Below are positions 1 to 11,615 of a DNA stretch of 14,944 nucleotides, in pieces. This stretch comes from Clostridia bacterium. GTDB lineage: Bacteria; UBA6262; WVXT01; JAUXBS01. Both the position numbers and the translations under genes were made by a program. The DNA lies in contig JAUXDE010000034.1 of assembly GCA_030618495.1 (NCBI GenBank), positions 1 to 14,944 on the forward strand, read 5' to 3'. Position 1 is the stretch's first letter. Every line of letters begins with the position of its first letter. The notes under the pieces were generated by a model. It did no database searches. It saw nothing but the letters and a program-made list of their open reading frames with translations, and was not told where the DNA came from.

Positions 1-52
1 AGACACCTATTTCAATTGACATTATATAAATAATAGGTGTCTGTCCCTATTT
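1..52. repeat. REP-like palindromic element, left arm cut by window edge
   Basis: Positions 1-11 (AGACACCTATT) and 32-42 (AATAGGTGTCT) are a perfect 11-base inverted repeat with a 20-base loop. The loop contains TTGACA at 16-21. The right arm continues as GTCCCTATTT (43-52), and the same ten bases end the right arm of the complete element at 11616-11677. The matching left extension (AAATAGGGAC) would lie just upstream of base 1, so the element is probably truncated by the window. It sits 12 bases before the start codon of the first gene and could act as a terminator for whatever lies upstream. Confidence 0.7.
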
Positions 53-64
53 GGAGGCAATAAC

Positions 65-1531
65 ATGAATAAAATGGAGCGGCTTCATAAGCTGTTGAAG
101 CATGCGGACCTTTTTGCATCGTTGAATGAAAAATCATTAAGGCTGATGGAAAAGAAGATGAAACTGGTTTCCTTTAAACCCGGGCAGGTTATCTGCAAAG
201 AGGGTGGGGAAGGCCATGTCATGTACCTTGTTGACACCGGAAAGGTAAGAGTGCTCAAGAAGAACAAAGCCGGAAAAGAAGTTGAAATCACAATTCTTAA
301 CCCGGGCGAAGTTGCGGGCATCATGAGCCTTTTTGAAAAGGATGTCAGGTCGGCGACATTAAAGGCAGTCGGAAGCGCCGGGATATGGGAACTGGACAAG
401 GAAGTGTTCTGGCACCTGCTTGAAGAAAATCATGCTTTCAACCAATCCATGCTTAAGGTCTTAAGCAAGTACCTGCGCAGGGAGGGCAGGATTGTCGCGG
501 AACTCCGTTCCTTCGATGATGAAAAGAGGCTGAAGGTTGCGGTATTTGATACGAAGCCCTATACGGAAAGGATATTCAACCGGCAGAACAAGGACCGCTA
601 CGCTTTGAAATTCTATGAGCCGCGTCTTAATACCGATACTGTTTCTCTTGCTTCGGGGTTCAAGGTTGTATGTGTATTCGTCAATGACAATGTTAACGCG
701 GCCGTTGTCAAGCAGTTAAGCCGGCTGGGTGTGGAGCTGGTAGCGCTGAGGTGCGCCGGTTACAACAACGTTGATGTCAAGGCGTGCGCCGCGCACGGGA
801 TAAGCGTTACCCGTGTTCCCGCTTATTCTCCTTACGCGGTTGCGGAACACACCGTTGCCCTTATGATGGCGTTGAACCGCAGGATTTTCAAGGCGCACTC
901 CCGCGTGAGGGAGAGCAACTTCTCATTAAACGGCCTGGTGGGTTTTGATATGCATGATAAGACCGTGGGGGTTATAGGCACCGGGAAGATAGGGAAGTGC
1001 CTTGTTAATATCCTGCGCGGTTTTGGCTGCAGGGTCCTGGCTTTTGATAAGTTTCCCGATAAGGCGCTGGCGTCAACGGGGCAGGTTAAATACGTGAAGC
1101 TTAACGATTTATTTAAAAAATCCGATATTATTTCGCTTCATGCGCCGCTGACCAGGGAAAGCCATCACCTCATAGACAGGGAAGCCATAAACAAAATGAA
1201 GAAGGGGGTAATGATAATAAATACCAGCAGGGGAGGGCTCATAGATACCAGGGCGTTAATCAAGGGATTGTTAAACGGCCGGATTGGATACGCCGGGCTT
1301 GATGTTTACGAGGAAGAAAGCAAGTACTTCTTCGAGGACTTCTCCGATAGCGTAATACACGACGAGGTCCTGGCGCGCCTTACGACATTTAACAACGTGT
1401 TGATAACCAGCCACATGGCGTTTCTCACAAAAGAGGCGCTGGTTAATATCGCCGATACGACCTATGATAACATCGGGGAATATGAATCCGGCAAGCGGGG
1501 CGGCGAACTTGCCAATGATGTAATAAAATAG
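65..1531 (+). CDS. Cyclic-nucleotide-binding domain fused to D-lactate dehydrogenase (LdhA-like)
   Basis: A 488-residue two-domain protein. Residues about 8-135 form a Crp-type cyclic-nucleotide-binding beta roll. The phosphate-binding cassette is recognisable: G81-E82, then SLF, then R95-S96-A97, matching the Gly-Glu and Arg-Ser pattern of CRP. No helix-turn-helix follows. Residues about 156-488 are instead a full-length D-2-hydroxyacid dehydrogenase very close to E. coli LdhA. Shared features are FVND, the LRCAGxNNVD block, VPAYxPxAVAEH, the Rossmann motif GVIGTGKIG (302-310), and the NTSRG, DVYE and AFLTxEAL blocks. The catalytic triad is intact as R389, E418 and H450, with the E-to-H spacing of 32 seen in the family. 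The expected reaction is NADH-dependent reduction of pyruvate to D-lactate in the cytoplasm. GGAGG at 53-57, seven bases before ATG 65, supports the start. Gating by cAMP or a related ligand is inferred from the fusion. I am sure of the domains, not of the ligand. Confidence 0.93.
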   Translation: MNKMERLHKLLKHADLFASLNEKSLRLMEKKMKLVSFKPGQVICKEGGEGHVMYLVDTGKVRVLKKNKAGKEVEITILNPGEVAGIMSLFEKDVRSATLKAVGSAGIWELDKEVFWHLLEENHAFNQSMLKVLSKYLRREGRIVAELRSFDDEKRLKVAVFDTKPYTERIFNRQNKDRYALKFYEPRLNTDTVSLASGFKVVCVFVNDNVNAAVVKQLSRLGVELVALRCAGYNNVDVKACAAHGISVTRVPAYSPYAVAEHTVALMMALNRRIFKAHSRVRESNFSLNGLVGFDMHDKTVGVIGTGKIGKCLVNILRGFGCRVLAFDKFPDKALASTGQVKYVKLNDLFKKSDIISLHAPLTRESHHLIDREAINKMKKGVMIINTSRGGLIDTRALIKGLLNGRIGYAGLDVYEEESKYFFEDFSDSVIHDEVLARLTTFNNVLITSHMAFLTKEALVNIADTTYDNIGEYESGKRGGELANDVIK

Positions 1532-7337: not shown

Positions 7338-8708
7338 ATGGTAAAAAAAACAGGAATTACCGGCAGGTTGGTTTTCAGCGGCCGGAAGAAAGGGTTCCAG
7401 GCAAGTTTTCGCGCCAGGAAGTTCAGGCTGATTTATCCGGACGGGATTTGGGAATCATACCCCGCCGGGTCAAGGGATTTCCTTCTTGATAACCTCGCGT
7501 TCCTCGGGACGCTCAGTATGCCGCTTGTTTCCGGCGCGAAGGAAGTGGAGTACAACACTTCGCCGCCGGTACTGGGCCAGTTCTTCCGTAACATGGTGAT
7601 AAGGAACATTCCCTCTGCGATTGAGGATTACAGGCCATCCACTTCAAAAACCATCAGCCATTTCATGAGCATCAGGTATAAGTTCCGGGATAACCTGATG
7701 AAAATGCCGTTCTATAAAGGGAAGACCGTAAAAAACAGGGTGGTCATTCCCTTTTCCTGCGGGAAGGACAGCCTGCTTACCCTCGCAGTGTGCAGGGATA
7801 TTGGGCTTGACCCTGTCTGTGTTTATATTAATGATACGGTAAGTCCCGATGAGAACAGGTTAAAACTTGAATGCATAAAGAGGATATCCCGTCAATTCGG
7901 ATTAAAAGTCCTGGTGGTGACCAACGAGCTTGAAAACCTTAACGATTTTGAGTACTGGGACACCGAGGAGAGCTGCGCGGGCTATGCCCACATGATTACC
8001 GGTTTCTGCTTCGCTGCTCTTCCCGTTGCGCATTATTTCAAGGCGGGATGGGTAGTGCTGGGGAACCAGCATAACATGAATTACTCTTTTATTAACAAGG
8101 ACGGCTACCTTGCGTACCCTTCTTATGACCAGAGCGCGGAGGGGACAATGCACCTGAGCGGCGCCCTGGGACTTGCGACGGAAGGGAAAGTCGGTGTCAC
8201 AAGTTTTATAGAGCCCTTGAGCAACATCGCTATTATCAAACTGCTTCACCGCAGGTACGCCGCCTACGGCAGGCATGAAATATCCTGCGACTGCATAAAC
8301 ACCACGCGCTTGAAGCGGAGGTGGTGCTGCGCGTGCAATAAGTGCGCCAGGCTTGCCCTCATGATGAGGGCGGTCGGGGTGGACCCTGCTGCCTGTGGTA
8401 TAAACAAGAGTATGCTGGACAGGAACTCCGAGCCGCTTTACACGCTGTTTAAGGGTAGCCAGAGGGACTGTTACGAGAAGAGCGGTGAGGCGAGGGACGA
8501 ACAGCTCTTTTCCTTTTACCTTGCGTATAAGAACGGTACAAGAGGATATTTAATTGATAAGTTCAAAAAGAAGTTCTTAAATGAGGCAAGGGCAAGGGAG
8601 AAATACCTGCACGGAAAGTTCATGACAATACAGAGCAGGGACACCCTACCCGCGGAGTATAGGCGGAAGGTGCTTTCTATATACAGCAGTGAACTGAAAA
8701 AAAAGTAA
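7338..8708 (+). CDS. PP-loop ATPase resembling MurL (UDP-MurNAc-L-Ala-L-Glu epimerase)
   Basis: A 456-residue cytoplasmic protein. The P-loop of the N-type ATP pyrophosphatase (PP-loop) superfamily is clear at residues 138-147: PFSCGKDSLL, with S140, G142, K143, D144 and S145. It is a variant of SGGKDS with Cys in place of the first Gly. The C-terminal part has a GNQHN block at 242-246 and a FIEPLSNIAIIKLL stretch at 290-303. A cysteine-rich segment follows (C317, C319, C330, C331, C333, C336, in the pattern RWCCACNKCARLALMM). This order matches what I recall of MurL, which uses ATP to epimerise the terminal L-Glu of UDP-MurNAc-L-Ala-L-Glu to D-Glu. The partner ligase MurD2 is not in the window, so another adenylation substrate is possible. 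AGGAG at 7321-7325 is 12 bases from the ATG, longer than usual, but no other start codon fits better. Confidence 0.75.
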   Translation: MVKKTGITGRLVFSGRKKGFQASFRARKFRLIYPDGIWESYPAGSRDFLLDNLAFLGTLSMPLVSGAKEVEYNTSPPVLGQFFRNMVIRNIPSAIEDYRPSTSKTISHFMSIRYKFRDNLMKMPFYKGKTVKNRVVIPFSCGKDSLLTLAVCRDIGLDPVCVYINDTVSPDENRLKLECIKRISRQFGLKVLVVTNELENLNDFEYWDTEESCAGYAHMITGFCFAALPVAHYFKAGWVVLGNQHNMNYSFINKDGYLAYPSYDQSAEGTMHLSGALGLATEGKVGVTSFIEPLSNIAIIKLLHRRYAAYGRHEISCDCINTTRLKRRWCCACNKCARLALMMRAVGVDPAACGINKSMLDRNSEPLYTLFKGSQRDCYEKSGEARDEQLFSFYLAYKNGTRGYLIDKFKKKFLNEARAREKYLHGKFMTIQSRDTLPAEYRRKVLSIYSSELKKK

Positions 8709-9633: not shown

Positions 9634-10554
9634 ATGAAAATAGGAATCGCAAAAGAAAGGGAACTGGCAGGTCCTCACAAGAGGGCCGTACTGCTTCCTG
9701 ATGACGTAAGGAAGGTCGTAAAGGCAGGCCACGAGGTTTTAGTGGAGAAGGACCTTGGTGAGGGCATCTTTATTGATGATTCAAAATATATAAAGGCAGG
9801 GGCTACGATAGTGAGTGACCCGCAGGATGTTTTTTCGCAGAAGATGATTATAAAACTAACAGCGCCTTCGGATAACGAGTTCCTGATGATGAAAAACTGT
9901 ATACTTTTCAGCATGCTGCATCTTGAGCAGAATACCCACAGGATCAAGATAATAAAGAAACAGAAGATAAAAGCCATAGCAATGGAAAGAATTGTCAATG
10001 ACTATGACGAAAGGACTGTAGACTGCACTGACATGACAGGGGAACAGGCAATGCTATTCGGTTTCAATCTTGTCTTGAAATCACCCAGGGAGTGCGGGGT
10101 GCTGATACTGGGCTACGGAAGAGTTTCAAGCGGGGCAATAAACATTGCTAATAGATTGGGCGCAAAAGTGAAAATATTAAGGAAGGATGAATACAGGTGC
10201 GTTAAGTATCATCTGAAAAATAAGGATATCCTGGTTAACGGAATTAAATGGCCGAAATACCACAGGATGAGGAGGGACTACGTTATCACGAGGAAGATGC
10301 TAAAACTGCTTAACCCCGGAGCGGTTATTGTTGATATCTCGGTTGATTCCCCGAACCCGATTGAAACCTGCAGGCAGACCTATCCGAATGACCCGTGGTT
10401 TGAAATAGACGGTATCAAGCATGTCTGTATTTACGGTTATCCTGCCCTGGTTCCCATCTCAAGTTCACGAAGGTATTCCAAACAACTGCTGCCGCTTGTT
10501 CTTGATATAGCAAAAAACGGCAACCTGACTATTTTGAATTTATCCAGGAACTGA
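9634..10554 (+). CDS. Alanine dehydrogenase/transhydrogenase-fold dehydrogenase, N5-(carboxyethyl)ornithine synthase-like
   Basis: A 306-residue cytoplasmic NAD(P)H-dependent enzyme of the AlaDH/PNT fold. The N-terminal domain begins MKIGIAKERE with KRAVLLPDD (R17). K74 in IIKLTAP and H96 in MLHLEQN correspond to the catalytic Lys and His of alanine dehydrogenase. The nucleotide-binding loop is GYGRVSSG (160-167). A late block, VIVDISVDSPNPIET (231-245), then HVCIYGYPALVPISSSRRYSKQLLPLVL, matches the family's C-terminal substrate region. It is about 60 residues shorter than typical alanine dehydrogenases. That length is closer to N5-(carboxyethyl)ornithine synthase, which reductively condenses pyruvate with ornithine. 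Its stop overlaps the start of the next gene (TGATG at 10552-10556), so the two are translationally coupled. The family assignment is firm. The exact reaction is inferred and could be another opine-type condensation. Confidence 0.8.
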   Translation: MKIGIAKERELAGPHKRAVLLPDDVRKVVKAGHEVLVEKDLGEGIFIDDSKYIKAGATIVSDPQDVFSQKMIIKLTAPSDNEFLMMKNCILFSMLHLEQNTHRIKIIKKQKIKAIAMERIVNDYDERTVDCTDMTGEQAMLFGFNLVLKSPRECGVLILGYGRVSSGAINIANRLGAKVKILRKDEYRCVKYHLKNKDILVNGIKWPKYHRMRRDYVITRKMLKLLNPGAVIVDISVDSPNPIETCRQTYPNDPWFEIDGIKHVCIYGYPALVPISSSRRYSKQLLPLVLDIAKNGNLTILNLSRN

Positions 10555-11615
10555 TGAATAAACCAGAACCCTTTCGTAAAAAAACAATTCTTGTAATCGG
10601 AGACCATAGTGATAGAAAGTCTTTCCTGAAATTTAAGAGAAAAAGAAATGTTTTTATTAACAAAAATATTGACTTCAGGACAGTACGGTACAATACTGTC
10701 ATTAATGGCAACCTTCCGGATATAAAATCAAATAAAATCATGATACTTCTTTTTTTCCCCCTTGATTACTGGGACAATGAAATAGAGAAACGTTTTGTGA
10801 AGGGACGTGTGTACGGGGATAGAAAATGCATTGAAATGTTTCATGATTACCTGGACAGGATAAGGGAAACAATCAGGAAAAAATACCGCGGCAAGGAAAT
10901 GAGTTATGTGAACTCGTTTGCAGCCGTTAAAATTGACAGGGACAAGGAATTAACGAAAAAGGTTATTAAGAAATCCGGTGTGCCCGTTCCAAGAAGTTAT
11001 TCTACAAGAAAATACAATGACATTATCGGGTTGTTAAACAAGGGAAAAAAACTCTATCTTAAAGTGAATTTCGGCGCCAATGGCAAGGGTATTACAAGGC
11101 TTGAGAAGGGAAAGTGGCTTACAAATTTCATATACAGGGGCGGCAGCATTGTAAGCAGGAAGGGCGATTACGGGTGGAGGTTTAAAGATATTACCGGAAA
11201 CAGCGGTTTCTTGAGGAAACTGCTCGGGAAGGACCTGGTAATTGAAGAAGCTATAAGCCCATATATGATAGACGGCAAGAAATTCGATATAAGGTATTAC
11301 GTGATTTACGGAAAGGTAAAACACGTAATAATAAGAAGCGCCGCGGCAGGCCGGGTTGTAACCAATATAACGCAGGGTGGCGCCAAGGAGAAGACGGGTT
11401 TCATAAAAACGATCCCTGCTATGTACGTAAACCGCGCTGAGAAATACGCGGTGAGGGCCGCGAAGGCGTTGAACCTTAACCTGGCGGGTATTGACGTGAT
11501 GTTTTCAAAAAATGGAATACCTCGCGTGATTGAAGCCCAGTCATTTCCCGAATTTCCTGAAAGTAAGTATAATATGTCGGGAAAAATAACCAGGGAAATA
11601 TTGAAAAAATGGTAG
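10554..11615 (+). CDS. RimK-like ATP-grasp carboxylate-amine ligase
   Basis: A 353-residue cytoplasmic ligase. Residues about 1-115 form a pre-ATP-grasp region I do not recognise. The ATP-grasp core follows, with LYLKVNFGANGKGI (K170 and a flexible Gly-rich loop), the VIEEA hinge (229-233), FDIRYYVIYGKVK (D245, R247), R261, N271-ITQGG, and D314 in AGIDVMF. The metal site ends in VIEAQSFPEF, so the usual E-x-N is E327-x-Q329. Such enzymes activate a carboxylate as an acyl phosphate and join it to an amine. The ATG shares one base with the preceding stop and no separate ribosome site is needed. The partner is the opine-type dehydrogenase, whose product would be a plausible substrate. The substrate cannot be read from the sequence. 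The gene stops directly at the edge of the REP-like hairpin. Confidence 0.87.
   Translation: MNKPEPFRKKTILVIGDHSDRKSFLKFKRKRNVFINKNIDFRTVRYNTVINGNLPDIKSNKIMILLFFPLDYWDNEIEKRFVKGRVYGDRKCIEMFHDYLDRIRETIRKKYRGKEMSYVNSFAAVKIDRDKELTKKVIKKSGVPVPRSYSTRKYNDIIGLLNKGKKLYLKVNFGANGKGITRLEKGKWLTNFIYRGGSIVSRKGDYGWRFKDITGNSGFLRKLLGKDLVIEEAISPYMIDGKKFDIRYYVIYGKVKHVIIRSAAAGRVVTNITQGGAKEKTGFIKTIPAMYVNRAEKYAVRAAKALNLNLAGIDVMFSKNGIPRVIEAQSFPEFPESKYNMSGKITREILKKW

Follow-up and report, generated by a model that had tools for sequence, protein, structure and literature searches.

The gene at positions 65–1531 (+ strand) of the window, by which we mean the whole 14,944-nucleotide stretch of Clostridia DNA analysed here, raises the question of whether a D-lactate dehydrogenase (LDH) carries its own cyclic-nucleotide-binding (CNB) sensor and, if so, what that sensor binds. 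The reading frame runs unbroken from an ATG at 65 to a stop at 1529–1531 in the list of open reading frames and encodes 488 amino acids. A Pfam search of the protein gave a CNB domain and both 2-hydroxyacid dehydrogenase domains, in line with the first-pass annotation: PF00027 (cNMP_binding) at residues 35–122 (E = 6e-20, 71.4 bits against a cut-off of 27.5), PF00389 at residues 158–478 (E = 5e-31) and PF02826 at residues 264–452 (E = 4e-53). The CNB part is also matched by the NCBIfam model NF058543 (mycobacterial Pat). Pfam found no helix-turn-helix, and the C-terminal part is a 2-hydroxyacid dehydrogenase, so the protein is not a CRP/FNR transcription factor; the proposal that an LdhA-type enzyme had taken the place of the DNA-binding half was therefore upheld. 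Judged by the match scores, chance domain matches are excluded, and the predicted product combines a CRP/PKA-type sensor and a D-lactate dehydrogenase in one chain.

All parts of the fusion lie on the + strand. From PF00027 and an AlphaFold model we assign residues 1–122 (65–430), comprising N-terminal helices and a beta-barrel, to the CNB domain; alignments to PKG/PKA and CRP place the phosphate-binding cassette within it at residues 85–96 (GIMSLFEKDVRS; 317–352). Residues 123–155 (431–529), delimited by the CRP alignment and the model, correspond to the B/C-helix, the dimerisation and signal helix of CRP, with a short junction into the LDH. The LdhA-type enzyme itself occupies residues 156–486 (530–1522; phmmer, alignment and model).

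The closest solved structures to residues 154–477 are fermentative LdhA-type D-LDHs (5z20, 4cuj and 5z1z; E about 1e-104 by phmmer), and fusion residue 156 pairs with residue 1 of chain 4cuj_A, which indicates that the enzyme is complete and follows the sensor with almost no linker. In a maximum-likelihood tree the LDH domain sits inside the LdhA-type family, and in the full-length AlphaFold model most of it has a pLDDT above 90. The catalytic residues R389, E418 and H450 were found where the first-pass annotation had put them and are invariant across 29 aligned sequences; the reading of the active site as intact holds up at this level. The enzymes of E. coli (5z1z), P. aeruginosa (5z20) and Fusobacterium (5z21) share the whole catalytic unit, the catalytic Arg/Glu/His and the 2-hydroxyacid dehydrogenase fold, but LdhA-type D-LDHs begin at the fusion's residue 156, and examined relatives outside the fusion clade have no CNB domain. 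At residue 451 (1415–1417), where LdhA-type enzymes have a near-invariant Gln beside the catalytic His, the window has Met; this residue may modify substrate preference or kinetics. Met is also present in the copy from the same genus described below, and Gln in the copy from another phylum. The statement that D-LDHs are normally controlled by substrates or transcription proved incomplete, since tetrameric LdhA-type enzymes also show homotropic and heterotropic allostery, involving fructose 1,6-bisphosphate, Mg2+ and oxamate (PMC4230899).

The same architecture is present elsewhere, as it should be if the fusion is real. A congener (genome G001, locus L008) carries it at 84% identity from its contig's first base on, and a bacterium of a different phylum (G255, L094) carries it at 56% identity over residues 6–486; the open frame there has 520 codons. 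Together with the window's genome (G000), these are the only three carriers among about 390 distinct genomes covered by phylum-, family- and relatives-wide searches, which makes the fusion rare in a sample with 6 genomes from the window's phylum and 7 from that of G255. In both the window and L008 the contig opens at the 5' end of the fusion gene, as might be expected if assembly or annotation had merged two adjacent genes. Such an artefact is nevertheless extremely improbable: the frame is single and clean, the fused sequences form a single clade, and the independent copies, one of them well inside a 271,705-base contig, rule it out. Because both contigs start at this point, the pattern suggests repeats at the gene's 5' end. 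A palindromic REP-like element (AGACACCTATT...AATAGGTGTCTGTC) lies just 5' of the gene at window positions 2–45, and the 14-mer AATAGGTGTCTGTC has 12 genomic copies, often two close together in inverted orientation, against 0 for the reversed control.

A maximum-likelihood tree built from 46 LDH domains groups the three fused ones in a single clade (support 100/97), present in all 200 bootstrap trees sampled, which points to a single origin of the fusion as far as sampled. None of the 79 other LdhA loci fetched had in-frame room for a CNB-sized domain; no place in plasmid records covered 80% of the query, and no CNB relatives were found in viral contigs. We also considered a hidden CNB domain upstream of other LdhA genes, because the alignments of L009 and several Treponema loci begin at residues 117–140; we rejected it, since the N-termini concerned are short, resemble the fusion only by chance and have no frame of CNB length. 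In G255 the fused gene and two open reading frames (271 and 136 amino acids, no Pfam match) fill about 3.1 kb between rplT and pheS (L116:4827–7901), whereas in its sister species G118 (pheS 98% identical) the rplT–pheS gap is 384 bases and lacks the insert. The LDH of G118 is unfused and belongs to another branch; in the G255 genome, which is 92% complete, there is no second strong LdhA match. This pattern fits a horizontal gain by which G255 would have obtained the fused enzyme in place of the ordinary LDH, perhaps with the same job as the unfused one of G118; loss in G118 could also account for the difference.

The Crp-like nature of the sensor was borne out by modelling. An AlphaFold model of residues 1–160 (pLDDT 81) adopts a predicted CNB fold that superimposes on 5j3u with Z 19.5 and an rmsd of 1.6 A over 120 residues, and cAMP- and cGMP-bound structures are among the top matches; the modelled fold is uninformative as to the ligand. 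A helix spans residues 123–139, and from residue 142 on the model confidence is under 50. In the full-length model the CNB domain has a pLDDT below 55, because just two aligned sequences span it, and only the LDH is resolved. A comparison of the window gene with L008 gave a dN/dS of 0.17 for the CNB domain (residues 3–122) and of 0.15 for the LDH, so that the sensor is under purifying selection as strong as that on the enzyme.

The ligand cassette had first been read as G81, E82, R95 and S96. R95 and S96 stand, but G81 and E82 are out of register: alignments to PKG/PKA chains and to CRP put the cassette Gly and Glu positions at G85 and I86. In the aligned stretch LNPGEVAGIMSLFEKDVRSAT, G81 and E82 match the Gly-Asp that precedes the cassette, E82 being at the place of the Asp of E. 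coli CRP 'GDFIGEL'; the PDB chains of PKG/PKA yield the identical register. Ile86 in the window protein therefore replaces the ribose-binding Glu, and the canonical Gly-Glu...Arg cassette is broken at that residue. The anion-binding half (G85, R95 and S96) is kept, with the phosphate-binding Arg and its small neighbour in place, as is the beta2-beta3 glycine, G50. In the CRP alignment, Tyr136 occupies the column of the base-capping CRP Arg123. The congener has Ile86 and His136; the copy from the other phylum has Glu86 and His136 and a complete Gly-Glu...Arg-Ser core. G85, R95, S96 and much of the cassette are invariant in all three fusions. For reference, cAMP is contacted at the ribose by Bd1971 Glu58 and CRP Glu72, at the phosphate by Arg67-Ser68 and Arg82-Ser83, and capped at the base by Arg108 and Arg123, respectively (PMC6717892).

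Is a cyclic nucleotide likely to be at hand? Immediately after a CRP gene whose product includes a helix-turn-helix, the host genome encodes a class III nucleotide cyclase (PF00211, E = 1e-31) with CHASE2, and G001 has the same pair. The cyclase carries Lys in DKFMGD, Asp in MDYTVIGD and Asn/Arg in VNLTSR, which we take to denote a cAMP-type product, and from these motifs it would make cAMP. With a class III cyclase beside a true CRP, cAMP is probably available in the host. The CRP and cyclase genes follow one another at L003:1267–2163 and L104:88–2055, preceded by what by eye looks like an ornithine carbamoyltransferase-like gene, and the congener has the same arrangement (L090, L106). Neighbouring genes at G000:C72:660–1615 (L004, L005) encode two stand-alone CNB proteins, each of about 170 amino acids and with a canonical cassette, and a similar adjacent pair occurs in G001.

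The surroundings of the fusion gene differ in all three genomes, and the flanking genes give no operon hint and no link to cAMP metabolism. Within the window, positions 9634–11615 encode an alanine dehydrogenase/PNT-like protein and a YheC/D-type ATP-grasp ligase whose frames share one base; the two may form a small biosynthetic pair. Positions 7338–8708 encode a 456-residue protein with no Pfam match, whose SCGKDSLL resembles, by eye, a PP-loop ATP pyrophosphatase motif.

These observations bear on the proposal of direct gating by a cyclic nucleotide, of which one part fared better than the other. The idea of a small-molecule switch is supported by the conserved architecture, the selection on the CNB domain, the allosteric LDH class and the cyclase; cAMP or cGMP is plausible as its ligand, but the cassette residues do not support it. 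Canonical second-messenger gating, in which cAMP or cGMP would bind the CNB domain at physiological affinity and switch the LDH, draws on the retained G50, G85, R95 and S96, on the cyclase and CRP of the host and on the full core in the other-phylum copy. A missing Glu need not abolish binding, as Epac has Gln at that position and is yet a cAMP-dependent factor (PMC2246266 Table 1). What speaks against such gating is the pairing of Ile86 with Tyr136 in the window, and with His136 in its congener. Moreover, Gly-Glu is kept in the other CNB domains examined in the window genome (L003, L004/L005, L006 and L007), so the Glu loss is specific to the fusion protein. We consider this reading possible but doubtful.

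The window cassette, GIMSLF...R, is instead close to the NtcA consensus GVLSLL...R, in which a hydrophobic residue replaces the Glu (PMC2246266 Table 1), and NtcA holds the carboxylate of 2-oxoglutarate through the cassette Arg and Gly (PMC12937710). By this precedent the pocket would bind an anion other than a cyclic nucleotide, such as a 2-oxo acid or a glycolytic carboxylate or phosphate, and the LDH would sense carbon status, which agrees with continued purifying selection on the CNB domain after the Glu was lost. NtcA, however, also needs a C-helix Arg and Glu, and these are absent from the window, where the corresponding columns, aligned through CRP only, hold Tyr136 and Gly141. We consider a change of ligand, too, possible but doubtful. 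The loss of two contact residues could also mean that the domain binds nothing and serves as a structural or dimerisation module, like the ligand-free, non-allosteric CRP/FNR relatives whose cavities are filled by side chains (PMC12937710). Pure structure, though, would not need the R95, S96, G85 and much of the cassette that are invariant in the three fusions, and we think this explanation unlikely. Between weakened cyclic-nucleotide sensing and a changed ligand the balance is about even, and the structural module takes a smaller share. A speculative extension is that members of the fusion family differ in ligand: the other-phylum relative would have kept the cyclic nucleotide, the window genus would have exchanged it for a metabolite anion, and the result would be a fermentation enzyme that senses a metabolite directly through a CRP-type sensor; we rate this as rather doubtful.

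An N-terminal CNB domain before an enzyme is also the layout of mycobacterial Pat (CNB-acetyltransferase), whose output is a GNAT domain that controls protein acetylation, not fermentation. CNB-enzyme fusions are indeed an already known class that includes Bd1971, PKG, Pat and a group of CNB-pyridine nucleotide oxidoreductases noted in 2007 (PMC2246266). Bd1971 of Bdellovibrio, a proven cAMP-switched CNB-EAL phosphodiesterase, dimerises by a CRP-like C-helix (PMC6717892); there, as is predicted for the fusion, an N-terminal CNB domain and C-helix control a C-terminal enzyme. It differs in its EAL output and in keeping Glu58, Arg67/Ser68 and Arg108, where the fusion has Ile86 and Tyr136 at the ribose and base-cap positions. 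The 'Bact_Pyrredox' family likewise joins CNB to an NAD(P)-linked redox enzyme, a pyridine nucleotide-disulphide oxidoreductase, but with tandem CNB domains, another enzyme superfamily and order, and the canonical cassette GEMGLISGRRRGATVRA (PMC2246266 Table 1). CRP and NtcA share the CNB fold, the C-helix and the Gly/Arg anion site with the fusion, and NtcA also the hydrophobic residue at the Glu position, but their output is DNA binding, whereas in the fusion an enzyme follows the C-helix. A CNB domain on a lactate or 2-hydroxyacid dehydrogenase was found neither in the literature searched nor among the 30 families of PMC2246266; the first-pass annotation, too, knew of no characterised example.

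On balance we lean slightly towards an allosteric switch built into an LDH whose tetrameric type is allosteric in its own right, the switch being ancestrally responsive to cyclic nucleotides and its ligand uncertain in the window genus. In its favor are the retention of both halves, the single fusion origin and the purifying selection on sensor and enzyme alike; the fold of the CNB-only model, with cAMP- and cGMP-bound structures among its top matches; and the allosteric LdhA-type class, the Bd1971 precedent and the cyclase and CRP pair in the genome. It is weakened by the replacement of two of the cAMP-contacting residues of CRP and Bd1971 and by a neighbourhood unconnected to cAMP metabolism. 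The fusion protein would assemble as a homotetramer, as known for LdhA-type LDH, and its CNB C-helices would pair as in CRP. A small anionic ligand would be held in the CNB domain by the G85 backbone and the R95 and S96 side chains, and the C-helix it moves would tip the attached catalytic domain towards a less or a more active state. Since CRP and Bd1971 act through the C-helix, which here leads straight into the catalytic domain, a movement of this helix that biases the LDH states would be the simplest mechanism, and an intracellular signal could thereby directly switch the reduction of pyruvate to D-lactate. Ancestrally, the sensor probably bound a cyclic mononucleotide, because the other-phylum copy keeps the Gly-Glu...Arg-Ser cassette; the Glu-to-Ile replacement and the lost capping Arg in the window genus suggest that it now binds either a cyclic nucleotide weakly or another anion.

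The carriers with and without the cassette Glu (G255 and the window genus) form a natural pair that offers a clean test of ligand change in a CNB domain. If ligand control is true, an enzyme at the end step of fermentation would stand under a direct CRP-type sensor, and carbon signalling would be tied to redox balance without transcription.
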